A stretch of DNA of 64,000 bases from Halorubrum sp. 2020YC2 (lineage in GTDB: Archaea > Halobacteriota > Halobacteria > Halobacteriales > Haloferacaceae): the NCBI RefSeq assembly GCF_018623055.1, contig NZ_CP076019.1, positions 2,604,001-2,668,000 on the forward strand. Direction: 5' to 3'. Numbering within the stretch: position 1 is the stretch's first letter; the number at the start of each line of letters is the position of its first letter. This document shows positions 3,841-62,347 of this stretch, piece after piece. The notes under the pieces were generated by a model. The model was not told where the DNA came from and made no database searches. It saw only the letters and a list, made by a program, of their open reading frames with translations. A program made the translations under genes and the position numbers.

Positions 3841-4110
3841 CTTATAGGGAGCGATGCGGTGGCGCGTGCCTGCGAGGCCGCTTTGCGGCCGAGCCGCGAG
3901 GGACCGAAGGTCCCTCTGGAAGCCGGCGCGAAGCGCCGGCGACAGCACGCGCGAGGGACGCCGCGAACGCCCGGAAGGGGTGAGCGGCGAGGTTGGGGAG
4001 GCGTGAGGTGCGGTGCGGTGCGAGGCGGGACTCAAGGGGGCAGCCGGGAGGCGTTTGCCGCCAATCTGCTGGCAGTTATTTATAAGCGAGCGGCTGGGGC
4101 TTTGGAGGCG
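3841..4110 (+). ncRNA. Intergenic structured element, copy 1 (P3-deleted)
   Basis: This is a degenerate copy of the element found seven times in the window. A TATA-like CTTATAG (3841-3847) precedes the conserved GGTGGCGCGTGCC at 3859. The outer P1 stem GCGCGTGC/GCACGCGC is present, but its interior holds three small hairpins with three-base loops (GGCCGC, GAGGGACC and GCCGGCGC stems). P2 is GCCGC/GCGGC. The conserved blocks GAGGTTGGGGAGGCGTGAGG and GGGACTCAAGGGGGCAGCC follow. The interior and 3' arm of P3 are missing: the 5' arm GCCGGGAGGCG runs straight into module sequence. It lies between hemL and argG, same strand as both. Confidence 0.5.
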
Positions 4111-13868: not shown

Positions 13869-14184
13869 TTATAAACAGGTGTGCGGTGGCGCGTGCCTGC
13901 GAGCGGCCGCCCTCGGCGGCCGCGAGGAGCACGCGCGAGGGAGTCGCTGGCGCCGACGGCGCCAGCGACGAGGCTGGGGAGGTGTGAGGTGCGGTTGCCG
14001 TGCGGGGCGGGACTCAAAGGGGCAGCCGGGAGGGTAGCGTAGACGACGTAAGTAGCGTGGCGCTACGCGCCACGGAAAGCCGGCGGCGAAGCCGCCGGCG
14101 ACACCGCAACAAGGGAGCGAACGGAGTGAGCGACCAAGTGAGGAGCGCAGCGAGTGTACGCTACCCTCCCGGCTGGGGCTTTGG
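13869..14184 (+). ncRNA. Intergenic structured element, copy 2 (complete)
   Basis: A TATA-like TTATAAA (13869-13875) lies 10 bases before GGTGGCGCGTGCC. P1 has outer arms GCGCGTGC 13889-13896 and GCACGCGC 13929-13936, and inner arms GCGGCCGCC/GGCGGCCGC with GA on both sides. P2 pairs GTCGCTGGCGCC 13943-13954 with GGCGCCAGCGAC 13958-13969. Then come GAGGCTGGGGAGGTGTGAGG and GGGACTCAAAGGGG. P3 pairs AGCCGGGAGGGTAGCGTA 14024-14041 perfectly with 14157-14174. Inside P3 are two extra hairpins with TAC and GAA loops (about 14062-14110), absent from most other copies. The element lies between the convergent argF and tatC1, so it is not a leader of either. Confidence 0.65.
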
Positions 14185-34138: not shown

Positions 34139-34234
34139 ACCGGTCCGTCGCGGGGGATTCGTAAGTCGGTTGCGGGTGGGGCGGGGTTTCGGGTCCGGCA
34201 GGAGTGAGCGTCGCATCGAAACAGCGTGTTTACT

Positions 34235-34561
34235 TATAAATGGAACGCGGTGGCGCGTGCCTGCGAGCGGCCGCCATCGGCGGCCGCGAGGCAGCACGCG
34301 CGAGGTCGCCGGCGCTACGCGCCGGCTGCCAGAGAATCTTCGATTCTCGCTGGAGTCGGCCGACCGGAGCGAAGCGGAGGGAGGCCGACGAGGCTGGGGA
34401 GGTGTGAGGCTGCGGTTGCGGTGCTGTGCGGGGTGGGACTCAAAGGGGCAGCCGTGAGGTGGGCGCAGGCGACGTAAGCACCGCAACGAGGGAGCGAACG
34501 GAGTGAGCGACCAAGTGAGGAGCGGAGCGAGCGTGCGCCCACCTCACGGCTGGGGCTTTGG
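34235..34561 (+). ncRNA. Intergenic structured element, copy 3
   Basis: TATA-like TTATAA (34235-34240) is 10 bases before GGTGGCGCGTGCC (34250). P1 has the standard outer stem; its 3-base helix is TGC/GCA, next to opposed GA steps and the GCGGCCGCC inner stem with an ATC loop. Two triloop hairpins follow (GCCGGCGC-TAC and GAGAATC-TTC). P2 is GTCGGCC 34355-34361 with GGCCGAC 34383-34389. P3 is AGCCGTGAGGTGGGCGCA 34450-34467 pairing perfectly with 34534-34551. It runs opposite to both hisB and hisA, so it is not part of either message. Confidence 0.65.
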
Positions 34562-34661
34562 AGGTGTTCACCGCCGATTCGCGATCACCAATTTATAAGC
34601 GACCGGCTGGGGCTTTGGCGGTGTTCTCCGGTGATCCGCAGTTTGTTATTTTTAAGCGATC
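34548..34661 (+). repeat. Two 57-base modules after element copy 3
   Basis: Module starts are GGCTGGGGCTTTGG at 34548 and again at 34605, with a decayed third start GACGACC at 34662, all exactly 57 apart. The first module ends in ATTTATAAGC; the second has ATTTTTAAGC instead, so its TATA-like core is weaker. The array ends about 20 bases before the hisA stop codon on the other strand. Confidence 0.65.
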
Positions 34662-34682
34662 GACGACCCCGCGCTCTGACTC

Positions 34683-35423
34683 TTAAATCTCGTCTGCCGC
34701 GTCCTGCGCTTCTCGCAGCGTGAACTCCCCCTCGTACAGCGCAGTACCGACGACGACCGCGGCCGCGCCGGCTTCCTTCAGCGCGACCACGTCCTCGACG
34801 GTCGCCACGCCGCCGGACGCGATCACGGGAACATCCACGGCCTCAACGACGCTCGCGACCGCCTCGCGGTCGACCCCCGCCAGCTGTCCCTCCACGTCGA
34901 CGTTCGTGAACAGGATCCCGCCGGCGCCCAGTTCCTCGTAGCGCGCCGCGGCCTCGGCGGGCTCTAGCCCGGTCCCCTCCGTCCAGCCCGAGACGACCAC
35001 CTCCCCGTCCTTCGCGTCGAGGCTGACGACGACGCTCCCCGGGTGTGTCTCGTCGATCTCCGCGACGATCTCCGGGGTTTCGACCGCCGCGGTCCCGAGG
35101 ATGACGCGGTCGAGGCCCAGATCGAGGAGGTCGCGCGCGCCCTCGGCGGTGCGGATGCCGCCGCCCAGTTGGAGGCCGACCCCGTCCGAGACGCTCTCGA
35201 CGACCGACTCGATCGCCGCCGCGTTGACGCGCTCGCCCTCGAACGCGCCGTCGAGGTCGACGAGGTGGAGCGTGCCGGCGCCCGCCTCGATCCACCGCTC
35301 GGCGGCCGCGACGGGGTCGCCGTAGCGCTTGCCCGTGCCGCGCTCGCCGCCGACCAGTTGGACGACCTCGCCGTCCTGCACGTCGACGGCCGGGATCACC
35401 TCGAACTCCGGGAAGTGGCTCAT
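34683..35423 (-). CDS. hisA: ProFAR isomerase HisA
   Basis: HisA is the TIM-barrel isomerase that converts ProFAR to PRFAR in histidine synthesis. The 246-residue protein starts EFEVIPAVDVQDGEVVQL, whose Asp is the catalytic base, and has the two phosphate-binding loops LGGGIRTAEG and ASGGVATVED, with VILGTAAV and AVVVGTALYEG strands. ATG 35423 is about 26 bases after a TATA-like TTTAATC on the minus strand. Upstream, modules of element copy 4 run in the same direction and could add promoter activity. Confidence 0.96.
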   Translation of the reverse strand: MSHFPEFEVIPAVDVQDGEVVQLVGGERGTGKRYGDPVAAAERWIEAGAGTLHLVDLDGAFEGERVNAAAIESVVESVSDGVGLQLGGGIRTAEGARDLLDLGLDRVILGTAAVETPEIVAEIDETHPGSVVVSLDAKDGEVVVSGWTEGTGLEPAEAAARYEELGAGGILFTNVDVEGQLAGVDREAVASVVEAVDVPVIASGGVATVEDVVALKEAGAAAVVVGTALYEGEFTLREAQDAADEI

Positions 35424-35459
35424 ACGGGAGGAGAGTCGCGGCCGGCGATTAAACCGGTC

Positions 35460-35574
35460 GGTTCGATATGAGATTGGAAGCCTCAGCGGTGAACTGAGTG
35501 TCTCCAGACCCCCAGCCGCTCGCTTATAAATGACTAATCGCAGATCGACGGTGAACACCGCTAAAGCCCCAGTC
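35460..35574 (-). repeat. Two 57-base modules between element copy 4 and hisA
   Basis: Read on the minus strand, the first module starts with GACTGGGGCTTTAG (high end 35574) and ends in CATTTATAAGC. The second starts with GGCTGGGGGTCTGG (high end 35517), exactly 57 bases on. The second has lost its TATA-like core (CATATCG) and is followed after 57-58 bases by GACCGG, directly upstream of the hisA promoter. The TATA-like box of the first module points toward hisA. Confidence 0.6.
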
Positions 35575-35823
35575 GCGAGGACGGCGCACACTCGTTGCGC
35601 TCCTCGTCACTCGCTACGCTCGTTCCTGCGGTGCTTACGTCGTCTGCGCCGCCCTCGCGACTGCCCCTTTGAGTCCCACCCCCCAGCACCGCACCGCAGC
35701 CTCACGCCTCCCCAGCCTCGTCGGTCGCCCTCCGCGTTGCTCCGGGCGACCGACTCCCTCGCGCGTGCGGTTCGCGCCGCGGTGCGGCGCTCACCGGCAC
35801 GCGCCACCGCATTCCATTTATAA
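35561..35823 (-). ncRNA. Intergenic structured element, copy 4 (minus strand)
   Basis: On the minus strand, TTATAAATGG (35823 down) precedes GGTGGCGCGTGCC (35808 down). P1 outer arms are standard; the 3-base helix is GGT/ACC and the inner stem GCGCCGC/GCGGCGC, both changed on the two sides relative to other copies. P2 is GTCGGTCGCCC/GGGCGACCGAC. P3 pairs AGTCGCGAGGGCGGCGCA (35662-35645) with 35588-35571 with one G-U pair. The AGCC/GGCT of other copies has become AGTC/GACT here, a paired change. This is the most informative copy for covariation. Confidence 0.65.
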
Positions 35824-43061: not shown

Positions 43062-43323
43062 TTTATAAATAGCGGCGCGGTGGCGCGTGCCTGCGAGTGG
43101 CCGCCGAAGGCGGCCGCGAGGAGCACGCGCGAGGGACGCGGCGACCGGAGCGAAGCGGAGGGAGCCGCGAGGCTGGGGAGGTGTGAGGTGCCGTGCTGTG
43201 CGGGGCGGGACTCAAAGGGGCAGCCGTGAGGCGGGCGCAGGCGAAGTAAGCACCGCAGGAACGAGCGCAGCGAGTGACGAGGAGCGCAGCGAGCGTGCGC
43301 CCGCCTCACGGCTGGGGCTTTGG
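43062..43323 (+). ncRNA. Intergenic structured element, copy 5
   Basis: TTTATAAAT (43062-43070) lies 9 bases before GGTGGCGCGTGCC (43079). P1 has the standard outer arms; the 3-base helix position is TGC opposite GGA, imperfect, as in copy 2. P2 is CGCGGC/GCCGCG. P3 pairs AGCCGTGAGGCGGGCGCA 43222-43239 perfectly with 43296-43313. The interior of P3 is shorter than in copies 2, 3 and 6. It starts 14 bases after the thiQ stop and runs in the same direction, so read-through from the transporter operon is possible. Confidence 0.65.
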
Positions 43324-43594
43324 AGGTGTCGTCCGTCGAGTTGGTAGCAACTATTTATAAGTAAGCGGCTGGGGCTTTGGAGGTGTCGTCCGTCGAGTTG
43401 GTAGCAACTATTTATAAGTAAGCGGTTGGGGCTTTGGAGGTGTCGTCCGTCGAGTTGGTAGCAACTACTTATAAGTAAGCGGCTGGGGCTTTGGAGGTGT
43501 CGTCCGTCGAGTTGGTAGCAACTATTTATAAGTAAGCGGCCGGGGCTTTGGAGGTGTCGTCTGCCGACTTGGTCGCAGCTATTTATACATAGAC
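43310..43594 (+). repeat. Array of five 57-base modules, four nearly identical
   Basis: Module starts at 43310, 43367, 43424, 43481 and 43538 are exactly 57 apart. The first four modules differ at two or three positions in total (GGCTGGGG or GGTTGGGG; ACTATTTATAA or ACTACTTATAA). The fifth differs at about ten positions and ends in TTTATACAT, and a decayed start GACTGG follows at 43595. Each carries GGGGCTTTGGAGGTGTCGTC and TTATAAGTAAGC. The near-identity indicates recent unit expansion in this copy. The 85-residue gene downstream starts 131 bases later. Confidence 0.85.
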
Positions 43595-57280: not shown

Positions 57281-57650
57281 CTTTTTATAGAACTCCAGAT
57301 CAACTGCTGGGCGCGAATCGGGGTAGCAAACCGGGGTGGCGCGTGCCGACGAGCGCCCACAGGGCGCGAGTCGCACGCGCGAGGTCGCCGGCGGCGAAGC
57401 CGCCGGCTGCCAGAGGGACCTTCGGTCCCTCGCTGGAGTCGCTGGCTCCCGGAGCGAAGCAGAGGGTGCCAGCGACGAGGCTGGGGAGGCGTGAGGCTGC
57501 GGTTGCTATGCGGTGCGGTCGGGAGGACTCAAAGGGGCAGCCGGGAGGCGGGCGCAGGCGAAGTAAGGACCACAGCGAGGGAGCGAACGAAGTGAGCGAC
57601 CGAGTGAGGACCGCAGCGAGCGTGCGCCCGCCTCCCGGCTGGGGCTTTGG
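57281..57650 (+). ncRNA. Intergenic structured element, copy 6 (displaced TATA box)
   Basis: A TATA-like TTTTTATAG sits at 57282-57290, but the conserved GGTGGCGCGTGCC begins only at 57335, about 45 bases later instead of 10-20. P1 has a GAC/GTC 3-base helix, opposed GA steps and inner stem GCGCCC/GGGCGC with ACA loop. Triloop hairpins GCCGGCGGC-GAA and GAGGGACC-TTC follow. P2 is GTCGCTGGC/GCCAGCGAC. P3 pairs AGCCGGGAGGCGGGCGCA 57539-57556 perfectly with 57623-57640. It lies between the thermosome and PNO1 genes, both on the other strand. Confidence 0.65.
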
Positions 57651-61933: not shown

Positions 61934-62047
61934 TATCGTTTATAAATGGTTGATTGCGAATCGATGCTGAATTCCTCCAAAGCCCCAGTCGCTCGGTTAT
62001 AAACAGCCGACCACAGATCGACAGCGAACACCTCCAAAGCCCCAGCC
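61934..62047 (-). repeat. Two 57-base modules after element copy 7
   Basis: On the minus strand, modules start at GGCTGGGGCTTTGG (62047 down) and GACTGGGGCTTTGG (61990 down), with a third boundary at 61933, each exactly 57 apart. The ends read TGTTTATAACC and CATTTATAAAC, so both keep the TATA-like core. The array ends about 120 bases upstream of the FMN reductase start and points toward it. Confidence 0.65.
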
Positions 62048-62347
62048 GCGAGGCGAACGCACGCTCGCTGTGCTCCTCACTCGGTCGCTACCGCTCCCTC
62101 GTTGCGGTGCTTGCGTCGCCTGCGTTCGCCTCGGGGCTGCCCCTTTGAGTCCACCTCACAGCACCGCAACCGCAGCCTCACACCTCCCCAGCCTCGTCGG
62201 CCGGCCTCCGCTTTGCTCCGGCCGCCCGACTCCAGCGAGAATCGAAGATTCTCTGGCAGCCGGCGCGTAGCGCCGGCGACCTCGCGCGTGCTGCTCGGCC
62301 GCAGGGCGGCCTCGCAGGCACGCGCCACCGCGGTTCACTTATAAATA
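62034..62347 (-). ncRNA. Intergenic structured element, copy 7 (minus strand)
   Basis: On the minus strand, TATTTATAAG (about 62347-62338) precedes GGTGGCGCGTGCC (62329 down). P1 has a perfect TGC/GCA 3-base helix, opposed GA steps and inner stem GGCCGC/GCGGCC. The triloop hairpins GCCGGCGC-TAC and GAGAATC-TTC are the same as in copy 3. P2 is longer and partly mismatched. P3 pairs 62138-62121 with 62061-62044; it has one C-C mismatch, while the GAACGCA/TGCGTTC part is changed on both sides relative to other copies. It lies in the divergent space between the FMN reductase and the hexomutase. Confidence 0.65.

Follow-up and report, generated by a model that had tools for sequence, protein, structure and literature searches.

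A candidate family of structured RNA elements dispersed through haloarchaeal genomes

Copies and architecture in the window

The intergenic sequence at positions 13869-14184 (+ strand) of a 64,000-nucleotide stretch of the Halorubrum sp. 2020YC2 genome, the whole of which we call the window, recurs elsewhere in that stretch and raises the question of what kind of molecule its conserved blocks serve. The first-pass annotation had read it as one of seven copies of an undescribed structured RNA. Of that reading, selection on the structure stands: the fold is real, occurs order-wide and is absent from Rfam. That RNA is the selected molecule is likely rather than proven, and the explanation that we consider probable is that haloarchaea possess a previously undescribed family of structured RNA elements dispersed through their genomes.

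The positions and strands of all seven copies were confirmed, as were the order of the blocks and the three P3 arm pairs given as examples, including their single G-U. In the 5' to 3' direction, a TATA-like box (present in about 59% of copies) is followed by GCGGTGGCGCGTGCC, P1, P2, a linker, GGGACUCAAAGGGG, P3 and GGGGCUUUGG. The element is about 110-300 bases long and has several domains. In the full copy at 13869-14184, the TATA-like box lies at 13869-13873 and P1 at 13885-13940, with its 5' arm block at 13885-13897 and its 3' arm at 13929-13940. P1 consists of a conserved outer stem (GCGCGUGC/GCACGCGC), a bulged C, a covarying three-pair stem (UCC/GGA, GAC/GUC, UGC/GCA, GGU/ACC, GAU/AUC or UUC/GAA), a tandem G.A/A.G and a covarying apical stem. 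P2 (13941-13969) is a covarying hairpin of the type GUC..GAC or CGCGG..CCGC. The G-rich linker (13970-14010, GAGGCTGGGGAGGYGTGAGG..GGGGYGG) contains the block GAGGCTGGGGAGG at 13970-13982, and the Gs of its consensus GAGGCUGGGGAGGYGUGAGG are for the most part constant, nearly invariant across 205 copies. The core GACTCAAAGGGG occupies 14011-14022 and the end block GGGGCTTTGG 14175-14184; between them lies P3 with optional inserted hairpins. P4 forms when GGGGCUUUGG pairs with GGGACUCAAAGGGG of the core (AAAG/CUUU; AAAG/CTTT in the DNA), and a symmetric GGG/GGG internal loop precedes the long P3 hairpin. This part, 14011-14184 in the copy described, is the one conserved order-wide. Within it, P3 has a conserved internal loop (GGCGACGUAAGCACC/GGAGCGCAGCGAGCG, in the DNA GGCGACGTAAGCACC/GGAGCGCAGCGAGCG) and a central hairpin in which two-pair stems alternate with tandem G.A/A.G.

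The other full copies lie at 34234-34561 (+), 35561-35823 (-), 43062-43323 (+), 57281-57650 (+; its TATA-like box lies some 50 bases ahead of P1) and 62034-62347 (-). The copy at 3841-4110 (+) fits the described element in part: it keeps P1 with inserted hairpins, P2, the linker, a variant core GACTCAAGGGGG and one tail unit and is devoid of the P3 hairpin. We used the compact copy at 43062-43323 as a fold example. Its folding energy of -141.1 kcal/mol corresponds to z = -6.05 relative to dinucleotide shuffles and is 29 kcal/mol better than that of the opposite strand (-112 kcal/mol). The minimum-energy fold contains P1, P3 and P4 with their loops; the proposed P2 was not recovered in it.

The window copies at 13869-14184 and 34234-34561, and others elsewhere, contain optional perfect-palindrome modules (e.g. 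GAGAATCTTCGATTCTC, GCCGGCGCTACGCGCCGGC), which are inserted in P1, P2, P3 or the linker and are seen in both loop orientations. In 2 of 58 aligned copies (L163 4915-5035 and L189 5103-5225), the P3 interior is inverted relative to the core, a state that probably arose by recombination between the P3 arms.

Distribution and covariation across the order

Far from making up the whole family, as first described, the seven copies belong to a set of about 150 in the genome, and the family is spread across the order. The 3.06-Mb genome contains 112 exact copies of the 12-base core GACTCAAAGGGG and none of its reversed control, which excludes chance. A covariance model of P3/P4 (R2) recovers at least 134 copies at E <= 0.001 and a P1-P2 model (R1) at least 148, giving a genome total of at least 130-150. 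Of the 195 genomes sampled within the order, 126 have R2 matches, representing 47 of 66 genera. Among 60 genomes sampled from the phylum, the six that match R2 are all haloarchaeal, and none of the 53 lying outside the order has a match. Copy number ranges from 0 to about 150 per genome; haloarchaeal genomes that served as negative controls, G092 and G144 among them, are element-free despite having as many first-look candidates as carriers. In other families, P3/P4 reads GGGUGGGACUGAAAGGGGC..GGGGCUUUC or GGAAG..CUUCC and reaches 83 copies per genome. The P3/P4 core is the order-wide part, and P1, P2, the G-rich linker and 57-bp tails with TATA boxes represent the Halorubrum form, P1-P2 leaving weak traces outside that genus. 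Exact-motif counts place the core in Halorubrum alone, with as few as two to six copies in some species. This picture of a Halorubrum-only element was rejected as an artefact: exact strings mislead because compensated changes separate the species, AAAG/CTTT having become GAAG/CTTC, for example. In one genome (G004), exact matching finds four cores and the model at least 60 copies.

We also found matches in 37 plasmid records and in none of the phage records. Three viral metagenome contigs (L374, L375 and L376) each carry the exact 16-base core TGGGACTGAAAGGGGC. Plasmids from several genera carry an R2 copy upstream of the gene for a replication factor A-like protein with an OB-fold (L377 3501-3608, L378 3501-3611, L379 3501-3607, L380 3501-3608 and L386 1260-1366); pNRC100 and pHME132 have the OB-fold gene and no significant R2 copy there.

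The covariation claimed from seven copies holds at both genus and order level. In genus-level alignments, which were built from sequence alone and made no use of structure, P1-P2 shows 183 double-changed cells compared to 59.5 in shuffles and P3-P4 217 compared to 51.7, and the covariation score of each was reached by 0 of 500 shuffles, these controls taking no account of kinship among the copies. The order-level alignment (117 copies from eight other genera), whose fitting to the covariance model biases its counts towards structure, has 97.7% of cells paired, 742 double-changed cells compared to 179 in shuffles, and a covariation score of 0.575 compared to 0.146 in shuffles and 0.03-0.07 in slid controls; here, too, 0 of 500 shuffles came up to the observed covariation. 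The first pair of P4 is C-G in Halorubrum and G-C in other genera; in the order-level alignment the next pair is AU in 71 copies and GC in 43, with none in a half-way state. The stem sequence is free and the pairing constrained.

The mismatches within the stems are fixed as well. At three P3 sites, 45-56 of 58 copies retain tandem G.A/A.G next to pairs that vary, and in P1 53-54 of 55 copies do so; A.A mismatches are likewise nearly invariant. This bears on the notion that the palindromes are a DNA-level by-product, arising and being perfected by template switching and gene conversion while folding itself goes unselected. Such a process would account for stems that are replaced wholesale, with orthologous content no closer than random, and for the inserted perfect palindromes with three-base centres, which are common in the copies. 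Palindrome repair would, however, erase the G.A/A.G and A.A mismatches, and it predicts neither a bias of G-U over A-C nor conserved unpaired blocks, both of which are seen. We regard this notion as improbable, and the invariant mismatches already largely refute it. G-U outnumbers A-C by 79:23 in the P3 outer arms and by 69:8 order-wide, which argues that one strand is under selection. C>T does not outnumber G>A in P3, so that plain mutation bias does not explain the G-U excess.

In agreement with the initial impression that the element belongs to no known family, an Rfam 15 scan of the window and 16 element loci returned tRNAs only, and a scan of four plasmid loci returned no family. A permissive scan gave just weak hairpin matches to a viral frameshift element (E >= 0.09). 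Literature searches, core strings included, yielded nothing on this element. With so large and ornate a structure present at least 100 times per genome in Halorubrum, across haloarchaea and outside Rfam, a notable share of intergenic sequence has gone uninterpreted.

RNA or single-stranded DNA as the folded molecule

RNA is favoured because of the size of the element, its fixed multi-loop architecture and the TATA boxes upstream of it in Halorubrum. In this reading, P1, P2 and a long P3 with P4 as its closing helix would form on one strand of each copy. The fixed sheared tandem G.A, the GGG/GGG loop and the loop CGACGUAAG/CGCAGCGAG predict that all copies share a binding partner, presumably a protein, for which they may serve as a scaffold.

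The TATA-like box, described at first as a fixed block, proved frequent and not universal: at least seven of eight positions of TTTATAAA are matched within the 45 upstream bases in 101 of 171 copies, compared to 3 of 171 in a control window, and 41% of copies have no good box. The box begins about 20 bases upstream of GGCGCGTGCC. If it starts at -26, as measured for HF2 promoters (PMC8707807), a normal start site would fall inside the P1 5' arm. This proximity counts against the RNA reading, as do head-to-head copies in other genera, which are only 20-40 bases apart and thus leave no room for two promoters between them. Most copies are followed by tandem repeats of 57 bp that include a TATA box and GGCTGGGGCTTTGG (window 34605, 43324-43550 and 61990), and within the window these units occur only after elements. 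The tail at 43324-43550 (+), behind the copy used as the fold example, is built of units reading GGCTGGGGCTTTGGAGGTGTTCACC..TTTATAAGNNAGC. A structured hairpin in the tail was dropped as a candidate: it has a G-U excess, but covariation is absent (1225 compared to 1224.6 in shuffles), and it served as a negative control. Identity of the tail with the class I repeats of Halovirus HF2 (58 bp, promoter-bearing) was rejected since the published motifs differ (PMC8707807).

The main rival to a structured RNA is a miniature mobile element that functions as single-stranded DNA, folded from one strand and recognised by a DNA enzyme, with the copies spread and homogenised, in the manner of REP/REPIN, IS200/IS605 ends or attC sites. 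We take this to be a serious alternative, although well short of probable. Strand-specific single-stranded DNA would yield the same G-U excess as RNA. The apical loops of P1 are triloops in 83% of cases, often C[GNA]G, and GNRA or UUCG tetraloops are rare among them. C[GNA]G triloops are exceptionally stable in DNA, and this preference suits DNA mini-hairpins and counts against RNA. A DNA element would further fit the roughly 150 dispersed intergenic copies in both orientations, the patchy distribution across genera, the perfect palindromic modules, the two inverted P3 interiors, the head-to-head pairs, the occurrence on plasmids and the fact that some orthologous sites are empty; a selfish element, too, would fit copies that are so numerous and so patchily distributed. 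On the other hand, Y1 transposases, on which REP and IS200/IS605 depend, do not track the element. None was found in G026 (83 copies, one contig) or G115 (21 copies), and they occur in genomes lacking the element. Terminal inverted repeats show no general signal (score 4.87 for the copy's own ends, 5.07 for a shuffled partner), no clear target duplication was found at five element-free orthologous sites, themselves diverged, and both sites and orientation persist genus-wide.

In two genera, GTGTTYAGTTA precedes the core by about 46 bases and has an inverted counterpart some 50 bases after it (L324-L336 in G187, L354-L355 in G115). GTGTTYAG..CTRAACAC at both ends is confined to G187 and G115, and these flanks may represent a terminal repeat, the arms of an outer stem or a promoter.

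Among known systems, REP/BIME/REPIN sequences with their RAYT (TnpA-REP) share with the element high copy number, intergenic position, palindromic stems with compensatory changes, one favoured strand and, in some genera, inverted pairs. The element differs in being far larger than the 20-40 bp palindrome of REP/RAYT systems, in its multi-domain build, fixed non-canonical motifs and long-lived sites, and in that some element-rich genomes are without a Y1 transposase. MITEs, which are reportedly present in haloarchaea such as Haloquadratum walsbyi, are likewise small, non-coding and dispersed, but for the element neither general terminal inverted repeats nor clear target duplications were found. 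Haloarchaeal intergenic sRNAs, e.g. Haloferax sRNA132, are said to have been studied as individual sRNAs; they are intergenic RNA candidates of the same clade, whereas the element is a dispersed repeat family whose RNA status is predicted. Orphan structured RNA motifs identified by comparative genomics likewise rest on covariation and conserved loops and have no assigned function (Weinberg et al., 2010; PMC2864571); the element differs from them in having about 150 copies per genome, in its content turnover and in being archaeal; the text of that study names no haloarchaeal motif (PMC2864571).

Neighbouring genes, inherited sites and replaced stems

With genes predicted by a home-made codon model, none of 77 copies of the genome overlaps a predicted gene. 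These copies lie in convergent (25), antisense (25), sense (15) and divergent (12) contexts, and other genera are similarly mixed. An opposing downstream gene is present in 50 of the 77, a slight excess that carries little weight, being weak and noted post hoc. In the window, several copies follow the stop codon of a same-strand gene at a distance of 14-76 bases, as would be expected of a cis-regulatory or terminator element in the UTRs of neighbouring mRNAs. This function is very unlikely, however, given that only 40 of 77 copies have a same-strand gene upstream and 27 of 77 downstream, that 12 of 77 lie between divergent genes, and that the orientation to the neighbouring gene is not constant in this or other genera. 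We give hardly any credence to a DNA site that serves to organise or replicate the chromosome: many copies in solely intergenic positions would fit it, but their spacing is random (coefficient of variation 1.03, expected 0.98), no strand pattern was found along the chromosome, and genomes differ from 0 to about 150 copies.

At the locus 13869-14184, the orthologous gaps of the other inspected Halorubrum genomes hold an element in the same orientation, either intact or as a deletion derivative. Site and orientation agree in about 31 of 36 orthologous comparisons, a count that overstates presence since many of the loci were chosen because they bear the element; the five exceptions are element-free. 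Despite this constancy, orthologous stems are no closer to each other than to random copies of other species (mean ranks 0.42-0.55). Position is therefore inherited and content exchanged. The simplest candidate mechanism is ectopic gene conversion that acts between conserved blocks, and the combination makes the family a natural experiment in gene conversion.

For a structured RNA, the same pattern of kept site and orientation with continually replaced stems leads us to propose local action. Each copy would be transcribed and would act in cis between transcription units, its stems being renewed from other copies through ectopic gene conversion. Our working hypothesis is that this action takes place at transcription-unit boundaries through the common binding partner; the boundary role itself is tentative. 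More speculative still is an archaeal SINE-like or domesticated RNA element, self-propagating and recognised by a common protein, which would occupy fixed intergenic sites order-wide and be refreshed by conversion between copies.

Ten pairs of copies are less than 3 kb apart, and eight of them face inward (L004, L009, L011, L033, L035 and window 34433-35675). Composite transposons were considered for the inward-facing pairs and set aside because the enclosed genes look housekeeping; in several pairs, named by eye from their translations, they resemble cysS, ffh, thi4 and hisA.
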